A stretch of DNA of 64,000 nucleotides from contig NZ_JAMJWD020000006.1 of the NCBI RefSeq assembly GCF_023554255.2, positions 62,001 through 126,000 on the forward strand. The letters run 5' to 3'. The notes under the pieces are model-generated. The model was given only the letters and a program-made list of their open reading frames with translations. It made no database searches and was not told where the DNA came from. Made by a program: the position numbers and the translations under genes. Positions 39,470 to 55,041 of the stretch are shown in pieces. How positions within the stretch are numbered: the first letter of the stretch is position 1; the number at the start of each line of letters is the position of its first letter. This DNA is from Phyllobacterium sp. 21LDTY02-6 (GTDB lineage: Bacteria; Pseudomonadota; Alphaproteobacteria; Rhizobiales; Rhizobiaceae).

Positions 39470-40936
39470 TTAATCCAAGCTTCCCGTGGCCCTGCTCTCC
39501 CTGAGCGAGGACCAGTCATTTGATCGGTATGCGATGAAAAACGCTGCCCCGGCGATGAGGCCATAGGCGATGGCGCCCGTCGCCACCTGCAAGGCCAGCT
39601 TCAATCCCGGCGCCATTGGTGCCGCCGCGAACCAGAGGACGGCCCCCGCCATGGCGGCGAGGCCGGGAAGCACGATGGCGGCACGCCTTGCGATCCTTCC
39701 CCATGACACACGGCCATAGCGGAACTGCAGCCAAACCGTCGCGATGAAGCTGATTACGCCGGCGGCGAACTGGCCTGCGGCAACAGCTTCGATACCAGAC
39801 GGCACGGTGGCAAAGATGATGGCGATGGCGATCGCCGCGTTGAAGAGCGATATCCGCGGCAGAAGATTGATCTGGCCCGTCAGCGAAAGCGCAGGTTCGG
39901 ACAGCACTTGAGGAATGCACATCAGATAGGCCAGCGCCAGGATCGACGTGATGGGCGCTGCCGGATGCCATGGTTCCCCGAGCAGCAGGACCACCAGATC
40001 CTCCGAAACCAGCGCCAGGCCGATAAAGATCGGAAGGGCGAGCGCCAGAAGAAACGGCATCAGCAAGGTAATTTCCTGCCCGACGCGCAGCTTCGTCTCG
40101 GTATGATGCGCGTCATTGTCGATGACCCGCCGCAACGACACCCACGAAATCAGCCGCGCCGGCTCCTCCATGAGTTCGAAGAACGAGGAGGCGAGACGTT
40201 CCGCGACACGGTAATAACCAACGCCGGCTGTTCCGATGAAGCCGCCGATGATGAAAGTCACCGCATAGGTCTGGATATAGGCGATCATGCGCGTCGAAAG
40301 GATGTGCCTCGAAAAGGCCGCCAGTTCGCGCACGACGCTCCATTCCAGCCTGAGGCGCGGGAACCATTTCGTGGCGACGAATGCGGCACTGAGGTAAATC
40401 ACCTGCATGCTGAGCTTGCCAATCGCCAGCGCGAATATGCCGAGGCCGGAATAGAGCCCCGCCAGCGCAGTCAGCAAGCCGACCGCTTCCCCGACCATGA
40501 GAAAGACCGAGTGGAGCTCCGACTGGCTGCGCCTGACGAGCAGTCCGGTATAGACCGCGCTCAAGGTGGCAAGGAACACCCATGCGGAAAACAGGCAGAG
40601 CAGGCTCGCCGCGCCCTGGACGGAAAAGATGCTGTCGATGAACTTCGCGGCGATGAGTCCGCCCGCTGTCCCGGCAGCGCCGCTGATGATGGCGGCAGTG
40701 CCGATCTGGTCGAGCAGCGAGCGGTCCTCCCGGCAGCTCATGATGAACTCCCTCGAGCCGGCTTCCGCGACGCGGGTCAGGAATATCGCGATCGCCAGCG
40801 TGAGCGTATAGAGCCCGAATTCCGCGGCGGTGAGCGTGCGCGCGGCCAGAATGAATACGGCCATCTGGGCGACCTGCGCAGAGACGCGCGAGCCGAGCGC
40901 GGCTATTCCCATGGCCGCCGCTTTCCGGGCCGTCAC
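39470..40936 (-). CDS. Polysaccharide flippase (Wzx/PST family)
   Basis: A 488-aa membrane protein with about 14 helices. It opens AAALGSR-like (IAALGSRVSAQVAQMAVFILAARTLTAAEFGLYTLTLAIAIF), characteristic of the oligosaccharide flippase family. It moves lipid-linked repeat units across the inner membrane for polymerisation. A GTG at 40936 starts the longest form; an ATG at 40912 with GGAAA upstream may be the real start. Followed immediately by methyltransferase and GNAT genes, forming one operon. Confidence 0.88.
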   Translation of the reverse strand: MTARKAAAMGIAALGSRVSAQVAQMAVFILAARTLTAAEFGLYTLTLAIAIFLTRVAEAGSREFIMSCREDRSLLDQIGTAAIISGAAGTAGGLIAAKFIDSIFSVQGAASLLCLFSAWVFLATLSAVYTGLLVRRSQSELHSVFLMVGEAVGLLTALAGLYSGLGIFALAIGKLSMQVIYLSAAFVATKWFPRLRLEWSVVRELAAFSRHILSTRMIAYIQTYAVTFIIGGFIGTAGVGYYRVAERLASSFFELMEEPARLISWVSLRRVIDNDAHHTETKLRVGQEITLLMPFLLALALPIFIGLALVSEDLVVLLLGEPWHPAAPITSILALAYLMCIPQVLSEPALSLTGQINLLPRISLFNAAIAIAIIFATVPSGIEAVAAGQFAAGVISFIATVWLQFRYGRVSWGRIARRAAIVLPGLAAMAGAVLWFAAAPMAPGLKLALQVATGAIAYGLIAGAAFFIAYRSNDWSSLRESRATGSLD

Positions 40937-41236
40937 ACTTCCGGCATCTCTTTTCGGGAACTGATCCAGGATATATACCCCACCGCTCTGTTCGGCCGCA
41001 GCTTCGGCCGTTCGATATTGTTTTTGCTTGTTTATTTCGGCTGATCCATGAACGCCGGCAGTCTCCGATTTCTAACAGATCGGCAGCGCATTTTCAGGAA
41101 CTACATTGCTAATCAATTCGATTAGCCCGTCTGGACGAACCCAATCGAACATGGGACATTCCTTAAAAAGGGGAAGCTCGGTCGCATCGGCAATGAAGAA
41201 AAACAGCGAACAAACCGAGCATCGCAGGGGGCCCGC
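40937..41236. promoter_or_regulatory. Divergent intergenic region with palindromic operator
   Basis: A 300-base spacer between the flippase operon and the GINT1-like gene. It holds the perfect inverted repeat GCTAATC-AATTC-GATTAGC at 41108-41126 (7-base arms, 5-base spacer). Apart from that it is AT-rich promoter-like DNA without a gene. The core TAATCAATNNGATTA recurs at 47248-47262. Confidence 0.6.
41108..41126. promoter_or_regulatory. 19-bp palindrome, candidate operator
   Basis: GCTAATC at 41108-41114, AATTC spacer, GATTAGC at 41120-41126. Dyad symmetry, AT-rich core and position 111 bases before the GINT1-like start and 172 bases before the flippase start suggest a regulator-binding site controlling both directions. 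The regulator is not identified; the LuxR-type regulator in the locus is a candidate by context only. Confidence 0.5.
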
Positions 41237-42781
41237 GTGTCAAAACTCGCCATTGGCGTTGCCATTGATTCCATCGAGGAACTGAGCAACTGGGAAGCAA
41301 AGCTGCTCGCAGATATTCTGGCCGACAGCCGGTTTGAACTCCGCGACATTGTCGAGAACAGGTCTCCGGCAAAGACGGCAGCCCCGCTCGCCCTCCGGCT
41401 GCTGCAACGCGGCGAACAGATGGTCTTCGCCCGTAACACAAGCAGCCTTGCTCGCGAGGTGAAGAGCCAGCTGCTGCGGATCACCGCGGACAACGGCTCG
41501 GCCTTTAGCGGCGTGGATATCTTCATCCGCCTCACCGCTGACGCACTGCCGCGGCGCGTGCTCGACCGCACCAGGCTTGGCGAATTATCGCTGGATTTCG
41601 TCGACCGGAAGACTGCTGGCTATGACTGGGCCGGTTTCCGGGAAGTCCGGAACGGCAGTCCTTTCACCAAGGTCGTCGTCAATTTCCGGGCAAGCGCCGG
41701 CGAGCCGCCGCAACCGCTCGCCGGCGCATCCTATGGCACCAAATTCTGCGCAACGGTCAATGGCGCATTCCTCAAGGAGAAGTCGGTCATCCTTCTCATG
41801 CGCGAATTGCGCCGGATCGCCGATAGCGGCGAGCTGAAGCCGGCCGCGGCGGTTCAGCCCACGGAAGCAGAGCATAGCCCGTCCTATCGGGACCTGCCGC
41901 CCTATCTCCGGCGCCTCGCCGGAAATATCCTGACCAAGGCGCTTGTCGTCGGGCGCACGCGCCTGGGATTGAAAGCCCGCAGCTGGGGCGTTCATATCGG
42001 GTCGGGCAGTATCGAGGATTTCCGGCCGTCGGAGAGTCTCGAGCTGCAGCTGACGCCGGGAATGTGGGCCGCCGATCCCTTCCTTTTCCAATGGAACGGC
42101 GAGGACTACGTGTTCTTCGAGTGTTTTCCCGGCAATCACGAAAATGCCTGGCTTTCGGTGGCGAAGCTCGTCGATGGCAAGGCGGAGCTATTGGGCACCT
42201 GCCTGCGCACCAGCTATCATCTTTCCTATCCTTTCGTATTCAATGATGGCGACGATATCTATCTCATCCCCGAGACCCATCAGACCGGGCGCGTGGAAAT
42301 CTGGAAGTCCGTGGAATTTCCGCTGAAGTGGGAACTGCATGCGACTGCCCTGGAGGGGCAAAGCCCAGCCGATACGGTCATGTTCAAGACCAAGGGGCAA
42401 TGGTGGCTGCTGACGTCGCTATCCGATCATTCGGACTTCATGGACCATTGCAGCGAACTCTATGCCTTCGCCGTGGATGGCCCCGCCCTGACGTCGGTGG
42501 TCCCGCACAAGCGCAACCCGGTGATCATCGGCAGCGACATCGCGCGCAATGCCGGACGCGTCCACCTCGTCGGCGACCGCCTGTTGCGCCCGTCTCAATG
42601 CAATTCCCATGGCGTCTATGGCTATGGGCTCAATATCCAGGAAATAACCCGGCTCGATGCCGACGAATACAGCGAGCGGCCCTTGCGACTCATCGAGCCC
42701 AATTTCAAACCGGGAATCGTCGCATGTCATCATGTCGATTTCCTCGGCGGGCGCTTCGTGATCGATTTGTGCCGGGCCTGA
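41237..42781 (+). CDS. GINT1-like glycosyltransferase-associated protein
   Basis: A 514-aa protein with a GTG start. The N-terminal half resembles a formyltransferase-like Rossmann fold (LAIGVAIDSIEELSNWEAKLL, then a long open region). The C-terminal half (about 250-510) is a five-bladed propeller-like domain as in the N-terminal domain of plant glucosamine inositolphosphorylceramide transferase: repeated WAADPFLFQWNGEDYVFFE, YPFVFNDGDDIYLIPETHQTG and ADTVMFKTKGQWWLLTS blades with Asp/Glu pairs. Such proteins occur in bacterial polysaccharide clusters, where their reaction is not established. Confidence 0.7.
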   Translation: MSKLAIGVAIDSIEELSNWEAKLLADILADSRFELRDIVENRSPAKTAAPLALRLLQRGEQMVFARNTSSLAREVKSQLLRITADNGSAFSGVDIFIRLTADALPRRVLDRTRLGELSLDFVDRKTAGYDWAGFREVRNGSPFTKVVVNFRASAGEPPQPLAGASYGTKFCATVNGAFLKEKSVILLMRELRRIADSGELKPAAAVQPTEAEHSPSYRDLPPYLRRLAGNILTKALVVGRTRLGLKARSWGVHIGSGSIEDFRPSESLELQLTPGMWAADPFLFQWNGEDYVFFECFPGNHENAWLSVAKLVDGKAELLGTCLRTSYHLSYPFVFNDGDDIYLIPETHQTGRVEIWKSVEFPLKWELHATALEGQSPADTVMFKTKGQWWLLTSLSDHSDFMDHCSELYAFAVDGPALTSVVPHKRNPVIIGSDIARNAGRVHLVGDRLLRPSQCNSHGVYGYGLNIQEITRLDADEYSERPLRLIEPNFKPGIVACHHVDFLGGRFVIDLCRA

Positions 42782-43095
42782 AATGCTGCACCGTTTCGCC
42801 GATTCGATCGCGAAAACAGGCAATTTGCGTCAAATTTTCCTAAACATTTAATGAATATTGATAAAGGCACAACCGCCGCCATTAGTCACTATTAATTATT
42901 GACGCCAGAGGCATATACTATAATTTTAACGTATAAAATGGAATCGCTCACAAATAAAAATAAGAAGCTGTTGGGTAATACTTCGGTTTAAACTTCTACA
43001 CTGAAACACGCAAGGAACGGCAATGTTCTCGCGCAAGAAGACGACGTGAAATTTATCTGACTTAGAGCGGCAATGGGTGGCTTGGGGTTTACATT
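42782..43095. promoter_or_regulatory. AT-rich promoter region of the sugar-transferase gene
   Basis: A 314-base AT-rich gap, far poorer in G+C than the genes around it, upstream of the initiating sugar transferase. It contains runs such as ACTATTAATTATTGACG, ATACTATAATTTTAACG and AAATAAAAATAAG. No gene or strong hairpin. It probably holds the promoter and possibly sites for an AT-binding regulator such as MucR/Ros, though no site is assigned. Confidence 0.45.
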
Positions 43096-43773
43096 ATGTC
43101 CTACATATCAGAACCGTTGGTTGAACAACGGCCAGAAATAACGAATGCGCAAAACAAACTGTTCTATGACCTTTCCAAAAGGGCGCTTGACGTTGCTTTC
43201 GCTGTCGTCGCATTGGCTTTTCTCTTTCCCGTGCTCGTGGCGATCGTCGTCGCCCTCATCGCACATGACGGCACGCCGATCATCTATCGGCAAAGACGCA
43301 TCGGCCAGAATGGCAAGGAATTCACCTGCTACAAGTTCCGCTCGATGGCGAATGACGCCGATGAGCGCTTGAAAAAGCTGCTGGACGAAAATCCGGAAGC
43401 CCTGCGCGAATGGCGCGAAACCCAGAAATTGAAGTCCGATCCGCGCATTCACCGGCTGGGTCGTTTCCTTCGCGTCTCAAGCCTCGACGAGCTGCCGCAA
43501 TTCTTCAACGTGCTGCGCGGCGACATGAGCATCGTCGGGCCCCGACCGATCGTCACGAGCGAAATAGCACGCTATGGCGATGCCTATCACTACTATGCGG
43601 CGCTGAAGCCCGGCATCACAGGCCTGTGGCAGGTGAGCGGACGCAGCAGCACCGGATATGACACGCGGGTGAAGCTGGATGTAGCCTACTTCAAGTCCCG
43701 CTCGCTTATTCTCGACATCAAGATCATGTGCCGTACAGCGTTAGTAGTACTCCTGGCGCGAGGCAGTTGCTGA
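43096..43773 (+). CDS. Undecaprenyl-phosphate sugar-1-phosphate transferase (ExoY/WbaP type)
   Basis: A bacterial sugar transferase of 225 aa, the short ExoY-like form. One helix (about 30-51) is followed by YRQRRIGQNGKEFTCYKFRSM, DPRIHRLGRFLRVSSLDELPQFFNVLRGDMSIVGPRP and a C-terminal KPGITGLWQVSGRSS. It transfers a hexose-1-phosphate (often galactose or glucose) from a UDP-sugar to undecaprenyl phosphate, starting the repeat unit. It is the committed step for this locus. Confidence 0.94.
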   Translation: MSYISEPLVEQRPEITNAQNKLFYDLSKRALDVAFAVVALAFLFPVLVAIVVALIAHDGTPIIYRQRRIGQNGKEFTCYKFRSMANDADERLKKLLDENPEALREWRETQKLKSDPRIHRLGRFLRVSSLDELPQFFNVLRGDMSIVGPRPIVTSEIARYGDAYHYYAALKPGITGLWQVSGRSSTGYDTRVKLDVAYFKSRSLILDIKIMCRTALVVLLARGSC

Positions 43774-43800
43774 CCAGGACCGTTCGCAGGAACCGCCGCA

Positions 43801-44130
43801 ATGACGCATCAATCAATGCATGTTCTCGAGTTGCCCATGCGCTATCGCCTTAGAGATTTCTGCCCGTCGAAGACCGTGCATTCTCGAATCTCCAATGCGC
43901 TATGGATTGAATATGGCGGATCGCCCTGGGACATGCCGCAGGACTGGGAGCCCGAACGCATCTGGGCGGCAAGCCTGGATCTCAATCTCATTCCCAATCT
44001 GGGGCCGATGTCGGTGGCAATCTTGCGCAACTGGCTCGTTGCCGGCGACAGTGAGGCCGGCACCCTCAACCAAGGCGGCGGTGGGCTAGAGCAGGCGCCA
44101 GACAACAACCCAGAAGATGACGCACGTTAG
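43801..44130 (+). CDS. Small protein with RpoA-CTD-like helix-hairpin-helix
   Basis: A 109-aa protein with AGGA upstream of the ATG. Residues 60-80 (LNLIPNLGPMSVAILRNWL) match the helix-hairpin-helix element of the RNA polymerase alpha C-terminal domain (IPNLGxxS). The tail is Gly/Asn/Asp-rich and disordered. It could be a small DNA- or polymerase-binding protein, but the similarity is limited to that one element and could be chance. Its 3' end overlaps a possible small membrane-protein gene on the opposite strand. Confidence 0.55.
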   Translation: MTHQSMHVLELPMRYRLRDFCPSKTVHSRISNALWIEYGGSPWDMPQDWEPERIWAASLDLNLIPNLGPMSVAILRNWLVAGDSEAGTLNQGGGGLEQAPDNNPEDDAR

Positions 44131-44232
44131 AAACGCGGCCCATCTGATCAAATACTTCTCCTCGACCAGGTCGAAAAAGGATTTCGATGGCTGCTCGTCG
44201 GTGGATTTGAGGTTTTCTGTCGGGTTTGGCAT
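44086..44232 (-). CDS. Possible 48-aa single-pass membrane protein (antisense overlap)
   Basis: An ATG at 44232 opens 48 codons: a polar N-terminal half (MPNPTENLKSTDEQPSKSFF) and a helix IRWAAFLTCVIFWVVVWRLL at the C-terminus, with basic residues flanking it. The reading looks like a genuine small tail-anchored protein. A weak AAGAG lies upstream. It overlaps the 3' end of the gene on the opposite strand by 45 bases, so only one of the two ends may be accurate. No family is recognised. Confidence 0.45.
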   Translation of the reverse strand: MPNPTENLKSTDEQPSKSFFDLVEEKYLIRWAAFLTCVIFWVVVWRLL

Positions 44233-44427
44233 CGATCTCTTGAACTTGTTTCAATCGTCGATATCGCCCTTCCGTAAATAATCGGATTTAACGATACCCC
44301 GAAATTCGGCAGTAATTCCCCTGCCGTACAAGATCATATGCCACAAAAATGAATAAAAGCATAGTTTTTGGCAGGATATCCTGCTGATTTGGATTTAGTC
44401 GTCTTTTTCTGTGATCAATCGACGGAT

Positions 44428-45738
44428 TTATACGGCCTGCGCCCGCCCGTAAGACAGCTCGGGCCCTGGCCGCAGGACAGCCTGCTCCTGCGATCGCAGG
44501 CGAGACTTGTAAAGCGCGATGAATTCGTCCCGCCATGAGCCCGGCGTGTTGGACAGGCGCGGCGACACATCGAAGGCCAGATGGCTCATGCGCTCGACCG
44601 TCGCATCGTCGTCCATCTTCGCGAACGCGGCCGCCAGGCTGTCGACGTCCGTCCGTTCCGCCACGATCCCGCATCCAAGCTGCCTCGCCTCCTGAGCAAT
44701 GAAGGCCGATTTGAACGCGACGACAGGCACGCCGCTTTGCAGGCTCTCATGCGCCACCAGGCCGAACGGCTCCGGCAGGCGGCTTGGCATCACCACGAAG
44801 CGCGCCTGCTGCAAGAGTTCGGCAATCTCCTCATGGCTCCGCCAGCCCTCCCAGACAATTTCCGGATAGCGCTGAAGCAGTTCCTCCCGGAAAGCGCCAT
44901 CGCCGATGACGCGCAGCTTCCTGTTGACGCGTCTCGCCGCCTCGGCCGCGATATCCACGCCCTTCTCGAATTCCACCCTGCCGATAATGAAGATGTCGTC
45001 ATTGGTTTCCGCCGGGATCCGCCGGCGGGCAAAGGGACGAACCGGATTGAGAACCGTCCTGATCCGCTCCTGTGGAATGCCGCCGCGCTCGAGCCATGGG
45101 TTCATCAGCGGATGGATCGATGCGATCGTGCATTCGGAATCGGCAAGCTGCAGCAACCGCGTCCGCAGCCATGAACGGCCGAAACGCCAGACCTTGTCGG
45201 CATATCGCCGCTTGTCGCAATGCGAAGCGAGGCACTGGCGGCTGAGCGGCGTCAGCTCGCATACGGTCGACTGGTTGAAATTGGCATAGCTGCCATTCGG
45301 GCAGACCAGGGTAAAATCATGGGCCGAGATGACCAGCCGGTGATGCACGGGCCGCAGCGCCGAGAAGATCGATGGCGATAATATCTGCGCCCAGGCATGC
45401 ACGTGGTAGATCGTGCCGGGCGTGTCGTGCTGCGCGATATATTCGCGTATCCGGCGGTGGGCCAGCCGGTTATAGGCGCCTTCGACAATCCGCCTGTGCA
45501 ATGGCAGCTTCAGGAGCGGCGCGCTGCCGATACCGGATACCTCGATCCCGTCCGAGGACAGCGCAGGATTGGATCCGGCGTCGCCGCTGAGGAAGGTGAC
45601 GGGTATCCCGGCCTCGCGCAGGAGTCGGGCCGATAGCAGCGCCAGAACGGCAGCTCCGCCGCTCGCTATTGCCTCGTCATTGATGACAACCACTCGTTCG
45701 AGCGGCACTAAAGCGTTTTCAGCTGGGCTGGACGACAT
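44428..45738 (-). CDS. Glycosyltransferase family 4
   Basis: A 436-aa GT-B glycosyltransferase. The C-terminal donor domain has IFIIGRVEFEKGVDIAAEAARR (GT4 opening), LRVIGDGAFREEL, and the retaining GT4 motif VVMPSRLPEPFGLVAHESLQSGVPVVA with the EPFGLVxxE element. The N-terminal half contains HVHAWAQILSP and LVISAHDFTLVCPNG. It adds a sugar to the lipid-linked repeat unit. The start at 45738 (MSSSPAENAL) overlaps the preceding glycosyltransferase by 20 bases and has GGAG upstream. Confidence 0.88.
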   Translation of the reverse strand: MSSSPAENALVPLERVVVINDEAIASGGAAVLALLSARLLREAGIPVTFLSGDAGSNPALSSDGIEVSGIGSAPLLKLPLHRRIVEGAYNRLAHRRIREYIAQHDTPGTIYHVHAWAQILSPSIFSALRPVHHRLVISAHDFTLVCPNGSYANFNQSTVCELTPLSRQCLASHCDKRRYADKVWRFGRSWLRTRLLQLADSECTIASIHPLMNPWLERGGIPQERIRTVLNPVRPFARRRIPAETNDDIFIIGRVEFEKGVDIAAEAARRVNRKLRVIGDGAFREELLQRYPEIVWEGWRSHEEIAELLQQARFVVMPSRLPEPFGLVAHESLQSGVPVVAFKSAFIAQEARQLGCGIVAERTDVDSLAAAFAKMDDDATVERMSHLAFDVSPRLSNTPGSWRDEFIALYKSRLRSQEQAVLRPGPELSYGRAQAV

Positions 45739-46942
45739 CGGCCGGTCTCCGCGTCTTCGGACTGCGCGCAAGAACGAGTGCGCCCGGCTTCGGCCAGCCC
45801 TCCGGGATCGCCGGCGGCACGTTGACCGGAGACAGGCCGGCGGCGACGGCGCTGCGTTTCGCAAGCTCTTCCTGCACCAGCATCTTGATCTTCTTCTTGA
45901 AATTGTCCTTGCTGAAGTTGAGTGCGTGCGCCCGGATCGCCTTCGGCTCGAAACCGGCCTCGGCCGCCTCGAACTTCGCCACGCTTTCGATCAGGCACTC
46001 GACGCTCTGCTCGGCGAAGAGCATGCCGGACAGGCCCTCGACGACCGTATCCATCGCGCCGCCGCGACCATAGGCGAGAACCGGCCGGCCGCTGGCCATG
46101 ACCTCCACCGGAACGATGCCGAAATCCTCCTCGCCCGGAAATATCAACGCCTTGCATTGCGCCATGTGCTTCTTCAGCGACGCGAAGGGCTGATGGTCGA
46201 GAAATTTTATCGTCGGACCGGCGCGGCGCTTGAGGTCTTCCATCTCTTCGCCGGTGCCGATGACGACGAGGTTCTTCTGCATCCTGGTGAAGGCATCGAC
46301 CGCGATGTCCACGCGCTTATATCCGACCAGCTGCCCGGCACAGAGGTAGAAGTCGCCGATATCGTCCGCGATGGCGAAATCATCCACCGAAACCGGCGGA
46401 TGGATGACAGTCGCGTCCCGGCGGTAATATTTCTCGACGCGATTGGCGATGTGACGCGAATTGGCGACGAAGCGATCTACCCGGGCGCTCGTCGAGACAT
46501 CCCATTGCCGCAACCGGGACGCGATGACCGGCATGAGCAGCCGTTTCAAGAAGCCCGCATTGGCGTGATAGAAGAAATAATGATCCCAGATATAGCGCAT
46601 GGGCGAATGGCAGTAGCAGACATGCAGCGCGTCGGGCTTCGGGATGATTCCCTTCGCCGGGCCGGATTCGCTCGAGATCACCAGATCGTAATCGGTGATA
46701 TCCATGCTTTCGAGCGCCAACGGCATGAGCGGAAGCATCAGCTGGTAGTATTTCTTCACGCCGGGGATTTTCTGGAGGAACGACGTCTTGATCGTATGGT
46801 TCTTCAGCCGTCCCTTGATCGCATCCGGGTCGTAGACCAGGGTGAAGATATCGGCTTCCGGATAAAGCTCGCTCAGCGCTTCAAGCACCTTTTCACCGCC
46901 GCGCATCGACAGCAGCCAATAATGAACGATTGCAACTTTCAC
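45719..46942 (-). CDS. Glycosyltransferase family 4 (mannosyltransferase-like)
   Basis: A 407-aa GT-B enzyme starting VKVAIVHYWLLSMRGGEKVLEAL (the GGEKV element is typical of GT4 mannosyltransferases such as WcaI/WbaZ-like). The donor domain has LCAGQLVGYKRVDIAVDAF, LVVIGTGEEMEDLKR and FPGEEDFGIVPVEVMASGRPVLAYGRGG, with E-x7-E. The GTG start has AAGGGG upstream. First gene of a two-gene operon. The sugar specificity is inferred from motif resemblance only. Confidence 0.9.
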   Translation of the reverse strand: MKVAIVHYWLLSMRGGEKVLEALSELYPEADIFTLVYDPDAIKGRLKNHTIKTSFLQKIPGVKKYYQLMLPLMPLALESMDITDYDLVISSESGPAKGIIPKPDALHVCYCHSPMRYIWDHYFFYHANAGFLKRLLMPVIASRLRQWDVSTSARVDRFVANSRHIANRVEKYYRRDATVIHPPVSVDDFAIADDIGDFYLCAGQLVGYKRVDIAVDAFTRMQKNLVVIGTGEEMEDLKRRAGPTIKFLDHQPFASLKKHMAQCKALIFPGEEDFGIVPVEVMASGRPVLAYGRGGAMDTVVEGLSGMLFAEQSVECLIESVAKFEAAEAGFEPKAIRAHALNFSKDNFKKKIKMLVQEELAKRSAVAAGLSPVNVPPAIPEGWPKPGALVLARSPKTRRPADVVQPS

Positions 46943-47293: not shown

Positions 47294-48034
47294 CTAGTTC
47301 TTTAGTTTCGCCCATTGCACCGTTTCATTGAATGTCCACCCGGAAAAGGCAGATGAAACCTGCGGCGACGGTGCTTTCAACTCTCGCCCGAGCAGGATTT
47401 GAAGTAGAATCTCGGCATCCTCCCGCTTGATATGGCGCCAGGCTGCTGCGAGCTTGACGGCGGAGCCGGGCACCACGGCATCCGCACATGCGAAGATGCG
47501 CTTTCGCGTCCGATCCTTGAAGAAAACGCCATTGCAGGCGTCCCTGATTGCGCCTGCTTCGTCCAGCGTGATGGAACCGGCTTCCATCGCACGCTCCAGC
47601 GTCGCATCCACGGTCACCATCGCCTCGCTGAAGGCCACATAGCCGAACTCGGCCGGAGCGTGGATCTGCGCGACGGCCGCATCGTCCTCAAGTCCGCCGA
47701 AAGCATATCTTTCGAACACCTGGCCGAGGCCGATCATGCCGAATGGGTGGCATTCCGCCGCCCGCAGCGCCCCCATGCTGGCGGCTCCGTAGACGACGAC
47801 GCCGCGCGAGAGCGCGTAGAGAATCTCCTTGTGCCAGACCGCCGCCACGTCCTCGAACCGGCCATCGACGAGACCGATCCGGCGAAACCCCTGCTGCACC
47901 GCCCGCGTGATGTCACCGCATCTGGCCGGGCCGCGGCAGGTCAGATCATGCTCCGGCACCAGCCGGTCCTTGCCGCCTTCCAGCGGAACATAAGGCGTTC
48001 CCGACAGGCTTGGACCGGCAAACAATATCTTCAT
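47294..48034 (-). CDS. tfuA: TfuA domain protein, partner of YcaO
   Basis: A 246-aa TfuA-like protein. The family core is IGLVDGRFEDVAAVWHKEILYAL (about 54-75) followed by GAASMGALRAAEC (83-95) and YGFGMIGLGQVFERY-like sequence. TfuA was named from the trifolitoxin genes; in TfuA-YcaO pairs it is thought to deliver sulfide or act as a hydrolase supporting thioamide formation. It starts nine bases after the ycaO stop with TAGGAG upstream, so the two are co-translated. It is the last gene of the RiPP-like cassette. Confidence 0.92.
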   Translation of the reverse strand: MKILFAGPSLSGTPYVPLEGGKDRLVPEHDLTCRGPARCGDITRAVQQGFRRIGLVDGRFEDVAAVWHKEILYALSRGVVVYGAASMGALRAAECHPFGMIGLGQVFERYAFGGLEDDAAVAQIHAPAEFGYVAFSEAMVTVDATLERAMEAGSITLDEAGAIRDACNGVFFKDRTRKRIFACADAVVPGSAVKLAAAWRHIKREDAEILLQILLGRELKAPSPQVSSAFSGWTFNETVQWAKLKN

Positions 48035-48043
48035 CGCCCGCTC

Positions 48044-49300
48044 CTAATGCCGCAGCAGGGCGGTGAGCGCCCTTCCGCCAAAGCGATGCTTGCGCATGCC
48101 GACCGGGCTTTCCAGTTCGTTCACCAGCACCCGGCAGACGGAGATGCCGAACTCCTCGCCGCCGAGCGGCACGACGACAACGCTGCCGATCCCGCTGGCC
48201 CGCAATGGCGCCAGATAGGATTCGAGCCGCGCCTTGTCCTGCGGCATCGCGTCGGCAAAAGCGAAATCCGCCAGTGGCGCAGCATTGATGTAGACGGCAA
48301 GATCCGGTGCCAGCCGCTGCGCATATTCGGCGGGGTCGAAATCGTCCCGGGCGCCGGAAATATTGGTGATGCGCGTCTGCGCAGCTTCGGTGATCGCCCG
48401 CATCGCCGCAACCGTCGGCGAAAGATGACAGCCATAGCCAGCTGCCAGATCGAAATGCAGGTAGGATTCGTGGCGCGTCCGCGGAGAGATGGTAGCCATG
48501 AACACGGGCAGCCCGATATCGGAGCTGATATCGAAAAGCCTCAGTTCGAACCCGGCGGTCTTGATGCTGTGCGCCAGCCCGTCGATGCCCTCATGCCTGA
48601 GGGCAGCCGGATCGACACAATTCGCCTCGACCGCCGCATCCTTCCTGAAGCGCCAGAGTTCGATCGCGTCACGCTCCACGCGCTCGCAAAGCCCATGAAT
48701 GACAGCCTCCAGCAGGCAATTGCCCGAGGCCAGCCCATCCGTCGATTGGGTATAATGAAACGCCCGCCGGGCAGTGGTGAAATCGAGCGTGACCAGTTCG
48801 TGCGGAACCATGACCGGCGATTGCTTGATGAGATCATGGCCCTGCAGCCATTCCACCGGCTCGTCCATCGCCGGCTCGTCAGCATCGCGCATCAGCAACA
48901 TGCGCCCGTCGAAGACCGCGTTCCCCTGCTCGATCAGTTCCCGCCGCGAAGCTGTCAGACGTGGCAGGCCGATATTCTCGGCAATGGCGATCTCCGCCGC
49001 TTCCATGACAGCCGATGCCTGGGCATGAGCGGCGCTCATCCCCTTGCCCTGGCTCACGGCCAGCGTCCGGCTGTTTGGCCGGACAGCCATCCAGACGGGA
49101 ATTCCTATACGGTCGAGCCCCGTCATGTCGGCAATGCGGACAATGCCGAGCCGCGGGAAATGCGGGCGCAAGCGCTCCACGAGCGTTGCAGCGTTTTGAA
49201 GCCGGGCAGAGGAAAGACTGTCGGAGCGAGCAGCGGCCACAAGCCTCGCCTCATCGCCGGCCAGCCGTGCCATTATCGACGTCACGTCCAGGGGTTTCAT
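48044..49300 (-). CDS. ycaO: YcaO ATP-dependent peptide-backbone modifying enzyme
   Basis: A 418-aa YcaO protein with all three ATP-binding elements: SQGKGMSAAHAQASAVMEAAE (83-103), GLASGNCLLEAVIHGLCERVERD (189-211) and AGYGCHLSPTVAAMRAITEAAQTR (287-310). It lacks the proline-rich C-terminus of azoline cyclodehydratases (ends ALTALLRH) and no E1-like partner is near, pointing to the TfuA-associated (thioamide-type) class. YcaO enzymes phosphorylate a peptide amide oxygen to allow backbone chemistry. The ribosome-binding site is weak, fitting lower enzyme output than the upstream small-protein genes. Confidence 0.93.
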   Translation of the reverse strand: MKPLDVTSIMARLAGDEARLVAAARSDSLSSARLQNAATLVERLRPHFPRLGIVRIADMTGLDRIGIPVWMAVRPNSRTLAVSQGKGMSAAHAQASAVMEAAEIAIAENIGLPRLTASRRELIEQGNAVFDGRMLLMRDADEPAMDEPVEWLQGHDLIKQSPVMVPHELVTLDFTTARRAFHYTQSTDGLASGNCLLEAVIHGLCERVERDAIELWRFRKDAAVEANCVDPAALRHEGIDGLAHSIKTAGFELRLFDISSDIGLPVFMATISPRTRHESYLHFDLAAGYGCHLSPTVAAMRAITEAAQTRITNISGARDDFDPAEYAQRLAPDLAVYINAAPLADFAFADAMPQDKARLESYLAPLRASGIGSVVVVPLGGEEFGISVCRVLVNELESPVGMRKHRFGGRALTALLRH

Positions 49301-49340
49301 GAATTGTCCACGAGGGCGTGTCCCATGCCGCCATAAGGAT

Positions 49341-49373
49341 GTTCCGCCGGGACCATTCCGGCCCCGGCGGAAC
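49341..49373 (-). other. 11-bp GC-rich hairpin between small-protein gene and ycaO
   Basis: GTTCCGCCGGG (49341-49351) pairs exactly with CCCGGCGGAAC (49363-49373) around an 11-base loop. It lies eight bases after the 74-aa gene's stop on the minus strand and no U-run follows. It probably stabilises the precursor-like mRNA 3' end or attenuates readthrough to ycaO, a common layout in RiPP operons where peptide must exceed enzyme. Confidence 0.75.
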
Positions 49374-49380
49374 CTGTCCC

Positions 49381-49605
49381 TTAGCAGGGGCTTGCGGAAT
49401 AGGCGCGATCCGAAGCGTCACTGCGGCAAACGCCCGACATTACTGTCGACCGGTCGCGATTATCCATTCTTTTCAGAAATTCTGCGCCTGCGTTGCCCAT
49501 GGAACCAAGGACATCCCTGTCGATCAGCTCAATCGGGCGTTTATGTTCATCCACCAGCCAAAGCTTGTCGGTGGTCATGTCGTCAACAATGTAAAACTTT
49601 CCCAT
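49381..49605 (-). CDS. Candidate RiPP precursor/partner, 74 aa, Cys-containing tail
   Basis: A 74-aa protein starting MGKFYIVDDMTTDKLWLVDE. The ATG at 49605 has AAAGG upstream; the longer form from 49635 is less likely. It shares the pattern M-x-K-...-D-x-(x)D-x-LWLVD with the 80-aa protein encoded upstream, showing common ancestry. The tail is Ser/Asp/Arg-rich with two cysteines (C60 and C74, ending SASPC), plausible targets for modification. It lies directly upstream of ycaO and tfuA. It does not match a precursor family I know. Confidence 0.72.
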   Translation of the reverse strand: MGKFYIVDDMTTDKLWLVDEHKRPIELIDRDVLGSMGNAGAEFLKRMDNRDRSTVMSGVCRSDASDRAYSASPC

Positions 49606-49609
49606 GACT

Positions 49610-49648
49610 ATAACCTTTCCAAGTAAAGAGCTCACAAGGAGAGGTTAT
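49610..49648 (-). promoter_or_regulatory. Possible stem covering the 74-aa gene's ribosome-binding site
   Basis: ATAACCT (49610-49616) pairs with AGGTTAT (49642-49648), seven bases with a 25-base loop. On the minus strand the downstream arm (49616-49610) contains the AGG of the AAAGGTTATAGTC-ATG start region, so pairing could mask initiation. Translation from the upstream gene would open it. A chance pairing is possible. Confidence 0.3.
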
Positions 49649-49710
49649 TCTGATTCGTGCGGACGTCAATGGGTGGAGCAACTGCAGTAAAGTTCCCGCC
49701 GTTTCTCCAC

Positions 49711-49953
49711 TTAATTTTCGTTATTCTCGCTGTACGACTTGGTCGCAAGTTCCGCGCGCGCATCGCCGGAGATGGCCACGCTGACGCCCCTTATGAGCGA
49801 CATGCCATTTCGCCTTGCGCGATCGACCAGTTTCAACACGTCGGAGCTGAAAGGGCTTGCCAGCAGCTCTTCGCTGATCGGCACGACCGAGCCCGCTTCG
49901 ACATCCACCAGCCAAAGATCGCTGGCGTCCCCCAGAAGAAAATACTTTGCCAT
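49711..49953 (-). CDS. Candidate RiPP precursor/partner paralogue, 80 aa, no Cys
   Basis: An 80-aa protein starting MAKYFLLGDASDLWLVDVEA, clearly related to the 74-aa protein in its first 35 residues (K at 3, D at 9, LWLVD, then a Leu-rich helix). The rest (LVDRARRNGMSLIRGVSVAISGD) is basic then Asn/Ser-rich at the end. It contains no cysteine, so if it is a YcaO substrate the chemistry would be on backbone amides or Ser/Thr. It starts 27 bases after the regulator gene stop. Alternatively both small proteins are accessory factors and not substrates. Confidence 0.72.
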   Translation of the reverse strand: MAKYFLLGDASDLWLVDVEAGSVVPISEELLASPFSSDVLKLVDRARRNGMSLIRGVSVAISGDARAELATKSYSENNEN

Positions 49954-49980
49954 TCCTGCCCCGATTTCGTCGCGAACCGT

Positions 49981-51975
49981 TTAATGGAAGCCCGCTTCGC
50001 GCAGCGAGACCTCATATTTCTGCCGCTGTTCCGGCACCCTCAGGCACATGCTCTTGGTCCAGTCGCTGATCTTGAACCCCGGATTGTCCTCCAGCGAGTA
50101 GGCGCGGAATCTCGCCGCTTCGTCACGCTCTCCGAGCATGGCCCAGCAGGCTGCTATCAATCGTGCGGCCGCCCGCGGGTTTTGCATCCTGTTCGTATAG
50201 GCGATGGCATCTTCGTGCCGGTCGAGCGCATGCAATGCACCGGCGCCGACCCAGTAATAATAATCCGGCGCAAGCGGATTGTGCGCGATCGCCACCTCGA
50301 TCTTCTCGACCGCCTGTTCGAGCCAGCCATAATGCGTCAATGCGTCGGCATAGTCGGCCAGCAGGTCGGCATGTTGGGGATTGATCGACTCGCCCTGATC
50401 GAAATATTCGAGGCTGTCGTCATACTTGCCGAGATACATGCTGATCGTGCCGAGTTCGCGCAATGGCCGCTCGTCATTCGGATCGGTCGGCGCCGCGCGC
50501 TTGGCGATCTGCTCGCCTTCGATGAGAATGTCCTTGTCGCTGCGGGCCTGCATCAGCCACTCTTTCTGCATCGTCCGGGCAATGCCGCTCAGCGCGGGTA
50601 CGAAGTCCTCGGAAGCGACGAGGGCATTCTTGAACGACTGGCGCGCCTGGCGAAGCTTGACCAGGTCGAACTTGTCGAGATCGCGCTTGCCGGTGAGATA
50701 CCAGTAGTAGGCGTTGGGGTCCTGGTACAGCGTATTGTAGCGGTCCAGCTCGGTCTTCTCTATGATCGAGACCACCGACAGGATGATGCGTATCGACAAT
50801 TGCCGGTATTGCTGCTCCGGCAGAACATAGTCGAAGCGCTGCTTCTCGGCCCAGACGATCTGCTGCGTTGCCACGTCGATCAGCTTCACCGACAGGAAAC
50901 AGGTGCCGTCGCGGCGCATGATCTTGCTGTCGATCGCATAATTCACACCGAACTGCGTGCCGAGATGCTCGAAACTTTCGACCGGCGAGTCGACGACGAT
51001 CCGCCGCGACGTATAGGGGGCGACGACCGAAACCGTGCGCAGCCGGCAAAGGCCGATCGTAATGTCGTCGATCAGCGATGCGGCAAGCTGTTCTATCGGA
51101 TCATCGGCATTGTGCGGCATATAGAGCATGATGATGCGCGGCAGCCCGACGCGCTCATTCTGCTCGATCACGCTCGACGCCTGCAGCCCGCGCGGCAGTT
51201 CAATACCGGTGAAGGTGCCGACGGCGCGCCCTTCATTCGGAAGCTGCTTCGGCAACAGTCTCTGGTAGAGTTCGACGGTTTCCGTCTCGGGCTCGACATC
51301 CAGATCGTCGCGCAATTTCTTTGCACATTCGCGGAAAGTCCGCTCGACCTTCGTTATCTGCCCCAGTTGCGAGGCCGTGGCCATCAGCACCCGGTAGGCA
51401 ACTTCCTGATAGGGATCGATCTCGATCAACTTGCAGGCGCAGATGCGCTTTTCGTCGACGCTCACGCCGATCGGCCGGTTCACGACGCTCAGCAATATGT
51501 TGATCGTCTCGTCCCTGAGCTTTGCCCGCTGGACATCGAGCCATTCATCGAAATCGGCGCTCTGCGATTCATGCTGCATGAGCAGATCGCCATTGTAGAT
51601 ATCGGCGATCCGCAGGACGGATTCGATGTCGTCCCGGCATTTGCAGTTCAGATAGTCCAGCAGATCGATTTCGAGGAGCTGCGAGCGCACCTGTTCCAGA
51701 TCCAGATAGACATAGGTCGCGTCGCTCTGGATGAGGTTCAAACCATATTGGTCCTGGAACTTGCGTATGCGCGCCAGACATTGACGCAGGTTCATGGAAG
51801 CATGGGCCTGGTCGGTGTCAGACCACAGAATCTGGGATAGTTTGCTGCGGGAAACGGAATAACTTCCCGATTCGAGGAAGAGGTAAACAACAATTCTTAG
51901 AAAATTGGCAGGCACGCGCGGAACGAGCTGCCCACCCAGGCCAACAGTTGCCTCTCCAAAAACTGCCATTTTCAT
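49981..51975 (-). CDS. SARP/BTAD transcriptional activator with TolB-like and TPR domains
   Basis: A 664-aa regulator, first gene of the cassette. The N-terminal winged helix (about 1-95) includes SRSKLSQILWSDTDQAHASMNLRQCLARIRK, a SARP/OmpR-like DNA-binding form, followed by a BTAD domain (about 100-245, LDLEQVRSQLLEIDLLDYL and YRVLMATASQLG). Next comes a TolB-like region (about 275-390, LGTQFGVNYAIDSKI, VKLIDVATQQIVWAEKQ) and C-terminal TPR repeats (about 430-620). This combination is common as a sensor-activator. It likely controls the peptides, ycaO and tfuA encoded downstream. Confidence 0.87.
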   Translation of the reverse strand: MKMAVFGEATVGLGGQLVPRVPANFLRIVVYLFLESGSYSVSRSKLSQILWSDTDQAHASMNLRQCLARIRKFQDQYGLNLIQSDATYVYLDLEQVRSQLLEIDLLDYLNCKCRDDIESVLRIADIYNGDLLMQHESQSADFDEWLDVQRAKLRDETINILLSVVNRPIGVSVDEKRICACKLIEIDPYQEVAYRVLMATASQLGQITKVERTFRECAKKLRDDLDVEPETETVELYQRLLPKQLPNEGRAVGTFTGIELPRGLQASSVIEQNERVGLPRIIMLYMPHNADDPIEQLAASLIDDITIGLCRLRTVSVVAPYTSRRIVVDSPVESFEHLGTQFGVNYAIDSKIMRRDGTCFLSVKLIDVATQQIVWAEKQRFDYVLPEQQYRQLSIRIILSVVSIIEKTELDRYNTLYQDPNAYYWYLTGKRDLDKFDLVKLRQARQSFKNALVASEDFVPALSGIARTMQKEWLMQARSDKDILIEGEQIAKRAAPTDPNDERPLRELGTISMYLGKYDDSLEYFDQGESINPQHADLLADYADALTHYGWLEQAVEKIEVAIAHNPLAPDYYYWVGAGALHALDRHEDAIAYTNRMQNPRAAARLIAACWAMLGERDEAARFRAYSLEDNPGFKISDWTKSMCLRVPEQRQKYEVSLREAGFH

Positions 51976-52288
51976 TGAGCACGACCTTGCATATCAGATG
52001 ATTCAATAGGTTAAGGTGTATTCCAAATGCCATTTCCCGTCAGTTTGTTTAAACTCTACTATAGGTTTCAATAGTTCTCTATACCCGCGATGATCCGAAA
52101 CGCTAATAAATATGATCTATCGCGGTGCTCATGTCTGCCGGCCGGCCGGTATTGTGCTCCGGAAGGACATTACAGTGCGATTTTCATCCGTGCCGGGGCC
52201 AATCGGGAGGGCCGCGGGCCAGTTCAGGCGAACAATATTCGTTCGTTAAACTTGTCGACAAAGTATTGCTGGTGCGACCGGCGGCCAA
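51976..52288. promoter_or_regulatory. Promoter region of the YcaO/TfuA cassette
   Basis: A 313-base gap before the regulator. It is AT-rich near the gene (TTGTTTAAACTCTACTATAGG). TAATAAATATGATCT (52104-52118) resembles the TAATCAATNNGATTA motif at 12 of 15 positions but has poor symmetry. No gene found. It probably holds the cassette promoter and autoregulatory sites. Confidence 0.45.
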
Positions 52289-52627: not shown

Positions 52628-52742
52628 CGCCCTTCTCCCCTGTCTCAGGCACCGCCTGCGAATCTTCGCGTCGGTTTGAGCTTCAATGCGATTGTCTCAG
52701 ACGGTCTGCATAAGGAAAGTACATAATTAGAGCAGGTAGGGC

Positions 52743-53516
52743 TCAGATTCCATCGCCATGCGTGTGGTTTTCCTGCGTGAGCGTGGCAATGAAGCGCTTG
52801 GTGCGTTCCTTTTGCGGCCGGGTGAATATATCGCGCGACGTCCCGGTCTCGACGACGACGCCGCCTTCCAGCACCACGACCTCGCCGGCAATGCGCGACG
52901 CAAGCCGCAGGTCGTGCGTCGCCATCACCATGGTCGTGCCTTCCCGCGCCAATTGCGCGAGGACGTCCACCACCTCGCCCGACAGTTCCGGATCGAGGGC
53001 GGAGGTCGGTTCGTCGCAGAGGAGAACCTTCGGCGACGGCGCCAGGGCGCGCGCGATGGCGACGCGCTGTTGCTGTCCGCCCGACAATGTCGCGGGCCAC
53101 GCATCCGCCTTGTGCGCCAGCCCCACCTTGTCCAGCAGCGACAGGGCCCGATCCCGCGCCTTGGCTTTCGGCCAGCCGAGGACAGTCACCAGTCCCTCCG
53201 CCACATTGTCGATGGCGGTCCTGTGCGGGAAAAGCTGGAAGTTCTGGAACACCATGCCGGTATGGCGGCGCAGGGATTGGATGGCCTTCGCCCCCGGCCG
53301 CACGCCCGGCTGCAACTCCAGGCGATCGCCGGCGATCTCGACGCTGCCCGATGTCGGAATCTCCAGAAGGTTGATACATCTCAGCAATGTGCTCTTGCCG
53401 CCGCCGGAGGGACCGACAAGCGCAAGCACCTCGCCCTCGGCGACATTGAGCGACACATTGTCGAGAACGGTCTGATCGCCGAATTTCTTGACGATGTTCT
53501 TGAGCTCTATCATCAT
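52743..53516 (-). CDS. Polar amino-acid ABC importer ATPase
   Basis: A 257-aa ATPase of the His/Glu/Cys uptake family. Walker A is LVGPSGGGKSTLLRCIN, Q-loop VFQNFQLFPH, signature LSGGQQQRVAIARAL and Walker [15 protein letters not shown]. It energises uptake through the adjacent permease. The start overlaps the permease stop (ATGA), so it is translationally coupled. Neighbouring binding protein resembles cystine/cysteine-type receptors, but the substrate is not certain. Confidence 0.93.
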   Translation of the reverse strand: MMIELKNIVKKFGDQTVLDNVSLNVAEGEVLALVGPSGGGKSTLLRCINLLEIPTSGSVEIAGDRLELQPGVRPGAKAIQSLRRHTGMVFQNFQLFPHRTAIDNVAEGLVTVLGWPKAKARDRALSLLDKVGLAHKADAWPATLSGGQQQRVAIARALAPSPKVLLCDEPTSALDPELSGEVVDVLAQLAREGTTMVMATHDLRLASRIAGEVVVLEGGVVVETGTSRDIFTRPQKERTKRFIATLTQENHTHGDGI

Positions 53517-54193
53517 GAACGCGCCTCCAGAAATCCGCCATAGCGATTGAGTCTCAATTCGAGCCGCGCCTGCAAGGCCGACAGGACCGAGCTGAGCACC
53601 AGATAGATCAGCGCAGCCTCGATATAGAGGATCAGCGGCTCGTAGGTCGTCGCCACGATCCGTTGCGCCGCCTGGAAGAGTTCGGGAACGGTGATGGCAG
53701 CGGCAAGCGACGTATCCTTGACGAGCGATATGAACGTGTTGGAAAGCGGCGGAACCGCAACGCGCGTCGCCTGCGGCAGGATCGTCCGGCGCATGGCCTG
53801 CGACCAGCTCATGCCGATCGAATAGGCTGCCTCCCACTGGCCCTTCGGCACCGAGGAGATGACGGCGCGCAGGATTTCCGACGTATAGGCGCCGATGTTC
53901 AGGGTGAAGCCGATCAGCGCGGCGGTGAACGCATCGAGCACGATGCCGACGCTCGGCAGGCCGTAGAAGATCAGGAACAACTGCACCAGCAGCGGCGTGC
54001 CGCGGATGATCCAGACATAGAATTTGATGATGGCCGCCACCGGCGCCGGCGCAAACAGCCGGATGAGCGCCGCGACCAGCCCGAGGGTGAGGCCGAAGAT
54101 GAAGGACAGAAGCGTCAGCGGAATGGTGAAGATCAAGCCGGCCCAAAGCAGGGGAGCCAGCGATTCAAGCATCAGGTTCAGCCAGTGTGGCAC
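53513..54193 (-). CDS. Polar amino-acid ABC importer permease
   Basis: A HisM/YecS-type permease of 226 aa with five or six helices. The conserved EAA-like loop is SSVPKGQWEAAYSIGMSWSQAMRRTILPQ, and FYVWIIRGTPLLVQLFLIFYGLP is the family opening. It works as a homodimer with the ATPase encoded next. Transcribed from the binding-protein gene through an attenuating hairpin (54216-54235). Confidence 0.93.
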   Translation of the reverse strand: MPHWLNLMLESLAPLLWAGLIFTIPLTLLSFIFGLTLGLVAALIRLFAPAPVAAIIKFYVWIIRGTPLLVQLFLIFYGLPSVGIVLDAFTAALIGFTLNIGAYTSEILRAVISSVPKGQWEAAYSIGMSWSQAMRRTILPQATRVAVPPLSNTFISLVKDTSLAAAITVPELFQAAQRIVATTYEPLILYIEAALIYLVLSSVLSALQARLELRLNRYGGFLEARS

Positions 54194-54215
54194 GGCCTTT
54201 TCTCCTCAAAACAAA

Positions 54216-54235
54216 GGCAGGGGTTACCCCCTGCC
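54216..54235 (-). terminator. Attenuating terminator between binding protein and permease genes
   Basis: GGCAGGGG (54216-54223) and CCCCTGCC (54228-54235) form an 8-base stem with a four-base loop. On the minus strand it is followed by CTTTGTTTTGAGG, a U-rich run. It would partly terminate transcription after the binding-protein gene so that the receptor exceeds the permease. Confidence 0.8.
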
Positions 54236-54270
54236 CTGTTAGAGCGCAAATATCAATCGGCGTAAACGGA

Positions 54271-55041
54271 CTACTTGGAAACGTCCTGGCCGAAATATTT
54301 GTCCGCTATCTTCTGGTAGGTGCCGTCAGCCTTGATCTTCTCGAGCGCCTTGTTGATCTCAGCCAGCAGCTCCGGCTCGCCCTTGCGGATGATGATGCCG
54401 GAATAATCCGCATTCTCCTGTTCGGCGGCGATCTTCACGTTCGCATCCGGCTTGTGCTTCTTGAAGTCGAGGAAGGAAAGACTGTCATTGACCGTCGCGT
54501 CGGCGCGGCCGCTGAGGAGAAGCTGGATCGACTGGTCGAAACCATCGGTGCCGACGAGTTCGGCGCCGTTGCTCTGTGCGATCTTGCCGAAATTGCTCGA
54601 CAGCGATTGCGCCGACTTCTTGCCCTTCAGGTCGGCGAAACCCTTGATCTCGTCATTGTCGCCCTTGACGATCAGCACTGCCTTCGACGCGATATAGGGC
54701 TCCGAGAAATCATATTTCGCCTTGCGCGCTTCGGTGATGCCGACCTGATTGATCACGGTGTCATAGCGATTGGCGTCGAGGCCGGCGATGAGGCCGTCCC
54801 ACTTGCCCTCGAGGAATTGCGGCTTCACGCCAAGCTCCCTGGCGATCGCTTCGCCGATCTCGACGTCGAACCCGACGAGCTTGCCCGACGCATCATGATA
54901 GGTGAAGGGAGCATAGGTCCCTTCCGTCCCGATCTTGAACACGCCGGCCGCCTTGATCTGCTCGAGATTTTCTCCCGCAAGCGCATGCGCGGGAGCAATT
55001 GCGAGGGCGCCAACAACTACAAGTGATTTCAGCCAGTTCAT
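54271..55041 (-). CDS. Polar amino-acid ABC importer binding protein (cystine-type)
   Basis: A 256-aa periplasmic receptor with a Sec signal (VVVGALAIAPAHALAG). Typical family elements are GTEGTYAPFTYHDASGKLVGFDVEIGEAIA, the ligand-pocket DTVINQVGITEARKAKYDFSEPY and LSGRADATVNDSLSFLDF. The overall pattern resembles FliY/TcyJ cystine receptors, but specificity cannot be fixed from sequence by eye. First gene of the importer operon. Confidence 0.92.
   Translation of the reverse strand: MNWLKSLVVVGALAIAPAHALAGENLEQIKAAGVFKIGTEGTYAPFTYHDASGKLVGFDVEIGEAIARELGVKPQFLEGKWDGLIAGLDANRYDTVINQVGITEARKAKYDFSEPYIASKAVLIVKGDNDEIKGFADLKGKKSAQSLSSNFGKIAQSNGAELVGTDGFDQSIQLLLSGRADATVNDSLSFLDFKKHKPDANVKIAAEQENADYSGIIIRKGEPELLAEINKALEKIKADGTYQKIADKYFGQDVSK

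Follow-up and report, generated by a model that had tools for sequence, protein, structure and literature searches.

Pairs of YcaO and TfuA proteins have been reported to thioamidate peptides (PMC6511847, PMC13174530), and sulfur delivery in such systems has also been addressed (PMC13063428). Among the ribosomally synthesized and post-translationally modified peptides (RiPPs), thiovarsolin B is described as requiring only a precursor, YcaO and TfuA; its varA-varY-varT genes in Streptomyces varsoviensis encode a precursor whose imperfect core repeats vary in number, and no specific protease is described for the cluster (PMC6511847). The std cluster likewise directs YcaO-TfuA to a small precursor peptide, in which an Asn is thioamidated, but contains extra tailoring enzymes, a RiPP recognition element (RRE) partner and a single SNKEWQE motif (PMC13174530). 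The same enzyme pair thioamidates McrA of methanogens, a large enzyme instead of a small precursor (PMC5589413). TfuA has further been implicated in making the azol(in)e peptide trifolitoxin (PMC4603692, PMC9670871). Malit et al. (2021) mined TfuA-related clusters in bulk and counted more than 500 for Rhizobium, along with 797 precursor families; all thioamidated TfuA-YcaO products known by then were actinobacterial, although most such clusters are proteobacterial (PMC8120280). Here, we analyzed a cassette within a 64-kb stretch of Phyllobacterium sp. 21LDTY02-6 (contig NZ_JAMJWD020000006.1, positions 62,001 to 126,000; the window), which encodes a SARP-type regulator, two small proteins named s80 and s74, YcaO and TfuA. 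We consider it probable that this is a RiPP cassette with s80 and s74 as precursors and most likely a YcaO-TfuA-dependent backbone thioamide, and that it forms a subfamily characterized by a ~60-residue leader of its own and by a SARP-TPR regulator.

In agreement with the initial annotation of this DNA, the open reading frames (ORFs) of the window place the five genes in the order SARP, s80, s74, YcaO and TfuA, all on the minus strand. The regulator (49981..51975; 664 aa) is followed by the SARP-adjacent putative precursor s80 (49711..49953, without stop codon 49714..49953; 80 aa) and the YcaO-adjacent putative precursor s74 (49381..49605, without stop codon 49384..49605), which comprises 74 aa from an ATG start or 84 aa from an alternative GTG. 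The adjoining ycaO and tfuA genes encode a YcaO of 418 aa (48044..49300; Pfam 4.5e-63), whose closest solved relative is the archaeal MJ1094, and a TfuA partner of 246 aa (47294..48034; Pfam 3.8e-40), for which the best solved relative is the TfuA-domain protein 6xp8. One YcaO gene was found in the 4.6-Mb genome.

For s80 and s74, Pfam and NCBIfam gave no family match above the cut-off. The kinship of the two proteins, which the initial annotation had noticed, goes beyond chance: they match each other by BLASTP with an E-value (E) of 7e-06 in a single comparison, and a profile of ten Phyllobacterium s80 orthologues finds s74 at 1.6e-05 among 22,657 ORFs. In the same set of ORFs, a profile of 64 leaders from outside Phyllobacterium recovers s80 at 3.5e-11 and does not recover s74 (E 7.5); this profile is not fully independent, because the leader profile that collected the 96 precursors of the family was seeded with 16 segments including s80 and s74. 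Reversed-sequence controls with three profiles gave no match at E<1e-3. Judged by these comparisons, s80 and s74 are members of one unannotated family of putative precursors. Searches with either protein singly returned near-identical copies only, and three weak tblastn matches of s80 in plasmids were not used; the family emerged through the gene neighborhood of YcaO. Its leader can be written as approximately MAKxxxLGxxGxxxLWLVDxxxGTV, often followed by a second block, KGVDLAVA, and then by a genus-specific tail. When queried with an alignment of 71 members, a large protein database yields 290 clusters at E≤1e-3. No Pfam domain is present in the 120 clusters listed, and those with a name are called “hypothetical” or “uncharacterized”. 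Precursors of nine relatives were also checked against domain models. Eight gave no match above the cut-off, and the ninth (L034) exceeds the DUF3993 cut-off with a 19-residue segment of its repeats, in addition to MSCRAMM matches below the cut-off.

An AlphaFold2 model of the leader based on 71 sequences predicts three strands plus helices for residues 1-60, with predicted local distance difference test (pLDDT) values of 80-89 in this part, and a loose tail with values of 64 and 55 over residues 61-80. Accordingly placed within s80 are a leader part of residues 1-62 (49768..49953; beta-beta-beta-alpha in the model) and a putative core, GDARAELATKSYSENNEN (49714..49767), which is variable among orthologues. 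The top Foldseek rows for the leader model are chains of an RRE-bearing sactipeptide enzyme, with weak E-values of 0.1-0.5. A PqqD-like RRE in the leader was not supported by VIA-align, by hhalign against a PqqD alignment or by Pfam, and we regard it as a weak lead from the model only.

The ten named loci closest to the window (70-73% identical), called Phyllobacterium loci in the following, comprise eight from Phyllobacterium and two labelled Rhizobiales bacterium (L055, L056). Like the window, each encodes two precursors, an s80 orthologue with a single variable core and an s74 orthologue. In eight of the ten, the tail of the s74 orthologue consists of a repeated core, for example RSDPSDRAFSFDG or RSNPSERAHSAGPVV, with a consensus of about R[ST]xPS[DE]RA[FHY]S. 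The number of units is 8, 6, 8, 3, 5, 4, 6, 4, 1 and 1 in L052-L061 and one in the window, where s74 agrees in position and family with these multi-core proteins and its single unit, RSDASDRAYSASPC (49384..49425), is the counterpart of their repeats. No tandem repeat was found inside s80 or s74 of the window; two tiny ones are listed elsewhere. Comparing s74 repeats inside one protein gave proportions of synonymous (pS) and nonsynonymous (pN) differences of 0.655 and 0.133, the latter biased downwards by the regular expression used for counting, which restricts the units that count. The difference between the two values shows that the repeat DNA has diverged while selection retained the peptide at the protein level.

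Outside Phyllobacterium, the leader is combined with other cores, single or in tandem, in Rhizobium, Ensifer, Shinella, uncultured relatives and others. Tail repeats in these genera include RSDAASHYYYP, RSDAASHIFYG, SESLSAASSHNWGEP, EPKEAAFSGLLFQS, SGGFMD and AFSGKLE, and single cores are represented by ALSGHVDG or AFSGHLDG. An exact 5-mer is repeated in the tail of 24 of the 96 precursors, compared to one of 96 after one shuffle; identical sequences were counted once for this number, whereas the locus counts given below were not reduced in this way. The multi-core trait of the thiovarsolin type is therefore found in relatives, and s74 of the window has one unit. Another repeat-core candidate, a small ORF ending in MFDAGPMFDAGPMFDAGQ (L124:7708-7875), follows an XRE-type regulator and precedes YcaO-TfuA.

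We searched 297 genomes of the window's family for the cassette components and obtained matches to the leader profile in 52 genomes (E≤0.01), to YcaO in 87 (E≤1e-20), to TfuA in 86 (E≤1e-10) and to SARP in 103 (E≤1e-20). The leader search, in which no more than 19 candidates were scored for each genome, gave 63 rows. After removal of four weak ones (E 0.002-0.009, none linked to SARP or YcaO), 59 clear matches in 49 genomes were kept. All 59 have a same-strand SARP homologue within 3 kb and 55 have a YcaO within this distance; this test, restricted to the 80 best YcaO rows and to SARP rows down to E 1.2e-48, can only understate linkage. In 73 plus-strand cases, the precursor begins 13-407 bp after the SARP stop (median 30 bp). 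Of 80 named loci anchored on YcaO, which overlap with the 297-genome set, 68 contain TfuA and 65 the leader, 61 of the latter together with SARP, and all four components are present in 59. Homologues mostly remote from YcaO and TfuA, which the initial annotation had named as the observation that would speak against it, are thus not what we found, and its idea of precursor-like proteins beside YcaO-TfuA is borne out by the shape of the family and its linkage to YcaO.

The 297-genome set also contains eleven SARP-YcaO pairs without a leader match, all of which hold other small ORFs in the gap. In the SARP-YcaO-TfuA cassettes of L158-L163 and L173, a gap ORF of 42-65 aa ends with HALKFR, HAVRFR or HALRFR and is probably another precursor family. 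In those of L164-L167, the gap protein is 140-158 aa long, starts like YVIGxRxSGVLFIKTDPLR and may be distantly related to the leader. Eight further loci (L070, L072, L079, L080, L085, L088, L089 and L110) have a YcaO with an XRE-type regulator directly upstream and gave no match to TfuA or SARP. On a plasmid (L176, NZ_MK318969.1), two YcaO genes lie within about 8 kb together with a single-core and a multi-core precursor. The order there is SARP, single-core precursor and YcaO, and further on multi-core precursor, YcaO and TfuA; the order in the window, with s80 beside SARP and s74 beside YcaO, resembles this paired arrangement.

The cassette displays a trait of RiPP loci, namely a small precursor gene with a conserved leader and a variable core beside a modifying enzyme. 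For the type of modification, the window YcaO scores 208.6 bits with the NCBIfam model for McrA thioamidation and 121.3 bits with the SagD azoline model, both below the cut-off. A C-terminal PxPxP motif marks azoline-forming YcaOs, and it is absent from the last 25 aa of all 101 YcaO homologues inspected (some genes counted twice), including the one of the window. Based on these two observations and on the YcaO-TfuA pairs characterized elsewhere (PMC6511847, PMC13174530), we chose the thioamide as the chemistry, and by this analogy a backbone-thioamidated peptide is the most likely product. In the mechanism we propose, s80 and s74 would be precursor peptides in which the conserved leader of about 60 residues precedes the variable C-terminal core. 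With the leader presumably serving for recognition, YcaO would activate amides with ATP and TfuA would deliver sulfur, converting one or more core amides into thioamides. Short peptides could then be freed by peptidases encoded elsewhere, as was proposed for thiovarsolin, and the adjacent SARP, with its SARP/BTAD head and TolB-like/TPR sensor, would turn on the operon from a promoter with conserved repeats.

Several findings weigh against this proposal. The cores diverge too much from genus to genus to name one modified residue. The leader is missing from 15 of the 80 YcaO-anchored loci, and four clear leader matches (L154, L155, L156 and L157) have SARP and no YcaO on the contig. In addition, no exporter or peptidase at a fixed place was recognized by clustering the ORFs of 81 loci, a procedure that relied on longest-ORF calls, including wrong frames in GC-rich DNA. 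The only groups recurring at fixed places were an XRE regulator (24 loci) and a small downstream protein (16 loci). A group of ABC-ATPases, in which exporters and importers are not distinguished, is scattered over 36 of the 81 loci, and two of the 43 ATPases lie no more than 3.5 kb from YcaO.

The regulator consists of a winged helix-turn-helix domain (residues 1-97), a BTAD domain (~104-240), a TolB-like alpha/beta domain (~280-416) and a TPR superhelix (~420-660). These names derive from Pfam (BTAD 6e-12, plus TPR) and partly from inspection of an AlphaFold2 model (mean pLDDT 83.9, predicted TM-score 0.48), in which the strands and helices of the winged domain precede BTAD. With this model, Foldseek ranks the periplasmic domain of CadC fourth (E 3.1e-07, TM-score by target 0.44), and CadC is not among the 50 rows returned by VIA-align. 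The NCBIfam HilA/EilA model covers residues 332-567 at 5.1e-08, far below its cut-off. One SARP homologue (L190, NZ_CP022567.1, 3491-5338) is annotated as “peptide antibiotic resistance protein”, a name that may go back to the historic tfuA locus in the strain known for trifolitoxin. A conserved repeat-like block, TATAGAGAACTA-n8-TATAGT (52058..52083, minus strand), lies upstream of the SARP gene and is likely to be a promoter or regulator site, as predicted from its pattern, which occurs upstream of SARP in 7 of 11 loci (the window and the Phyllobacterium loci) and nowhere else in the window or the loci scanned.

In Mantel tests on 57 of the 80 named loci, leader divergence follows the regulator more closely than YcaO, which makes a peptide-sensing loop possible. 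The precursor or a peptide derived from it could be the ligand of the TolB-like/TPR sensor, with YcaO-TfuA tuning or stabilizing the signal. We hold this closed signaling loop to be conceivable but on balance doubtful; it is compatible with a thioamidated RiPP and extends further. SARP may itself sense the peptide. A specific form of this idea, which we regard as rather unlikely at present, is a self-contained circuit of the Rhizobiales, in which a cytoplasmic SARP with TolB-like/TPR sensor and its cognate precursor co-evolve and the thioamidated cores feed back. To our knowledge, no regulator-precursor pair of this kind has been described for TfuA-YcaO systems. If true, such a circuit could account for why no dedicated exporter was recognized.

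A RiPP cassette of the same make-up with a different chemistry, the formation of Ser/Thr azolines with a loss of 18 Da per ring, is clearly unlikely. Serine is present in 95 of the 96 tails, which speaks for this chemistry, but the window cassette lacks an E1-like/ocin-ThiF partner and a dehydrogenase, and neither was recognized among the recurrent neighbor groups of the 81 loci, which is a crude test. The missing PxPxP tails and the higher bit score of the thioamidation model also argue against azolines. The link of TfuA to trifolitoxin favors them (PMC4603692, PMC9670871), but the characterized YcaO-TfuA pairs yield thioamides (PMC13174530, PMC6511847). The initial annotation had correctly counted two cysteines in the s74 tail and none in s80, but the emphasis placed on them is not upheld by the family, in which Cys occurs after residue 45 in only 3 of 96 members. 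Thiazole formation is unlikely for this reason, and we rejected Cys-based chemistry. That the small proteins are structural or regulatory partners of SARP or of YcaO-TfuA, with the true substrate elsewhere as with McrA in archaea, is quite improbable: conservation is greater in the folded leader than in the tail and the tie to SARP is stricter than that to YcaO (59/59 versus 55/59), but tandem repeats in changing number and variable tails typify multi-core precursors and have no evident use in a partner.

With a thioamidated RiPP as the preferred explanation, the cassette is a variation inside the known TfuA-YcaO RiPP group and not a separate class. The initial annotation had proposed an undescribed class from the missing E1 partner, dehydrogenase, peptidase and transporter, a conclusion that cannot be maintained given the minimal gene set reported for thiovarsolin B (PMC6511847) and the Rhizobium TfuA clusters already counted (PMC8120280). 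The tandem cores, the tie between precursor and regulator and the spread of the family go beyond its account. Thiovarsolin resembles the present system in its repeats, in its enzymes and in that no specific protease belongs to its cluster, but differs in its actinobacterial host, the heme-oxygenase-like VarO and the APR/GPR core; the main text of that paper does not use the term SARP (PMC6511847). Because neither APR nor GPR occurs after residue 45 in any of the 96 precursors, we did not file the cassette as thiovarsolin. It is very probably among the TfuA clusters of Malit et al., in whose text we met no account of the present leader family, its tandem cores or a SARP; the peptides may be listed in the supplement (PMC8120280). 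In the open-licence literature searched, we met no description of this precursor family or its SARP. Trifolitoxin, like the peptides proposed here, is a rhizobial RiPP tied to TfuA, but is described as the azol(in)e product of tfxABCDEFG. The historic tfuA gene of trifolitoxin was reportedly described by Breil et al. in 1996.

Within the genus, 18 of 20 genomes including the window's own have a YcaO match, and the 17 others are 67-73% identical to the window YcaO. With the weak rows removed, the leader is present in 49 of the 297 genomes of the family. A search across the order found a YcaO of any type (E 0.001) in 86 of 397 genomes, and wider stretches were taken for 20 of the 29 loci from other genomes. 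Across the class, the leader was found in one of 376 genomes, the window's own; four of the 20 other genomes listed in this search belong to the window's order. As named from ORF translations, the cassette is flanked on one side by polysaccharide-type genes (39470-46942; sugar transferase, glycosyltransferases, flippase-like) and on the other by an amino-acid ABC transporter (52645-55041). Genes of the polysaccharide side are common to four loci (L055, L057, L058 and L059).

Cassettes of this type are common among rhizobia and related bacteria, and their recognizable precursor family with up to eight cores in Phyllobacterium makes the chemistry directly testable and provides an entry point to the question of why bacteria associated with roots produce such peptides. 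An interesting part of the locus is the pairing of regulator and precursor, which hints at a signal more than at an antibiotic.

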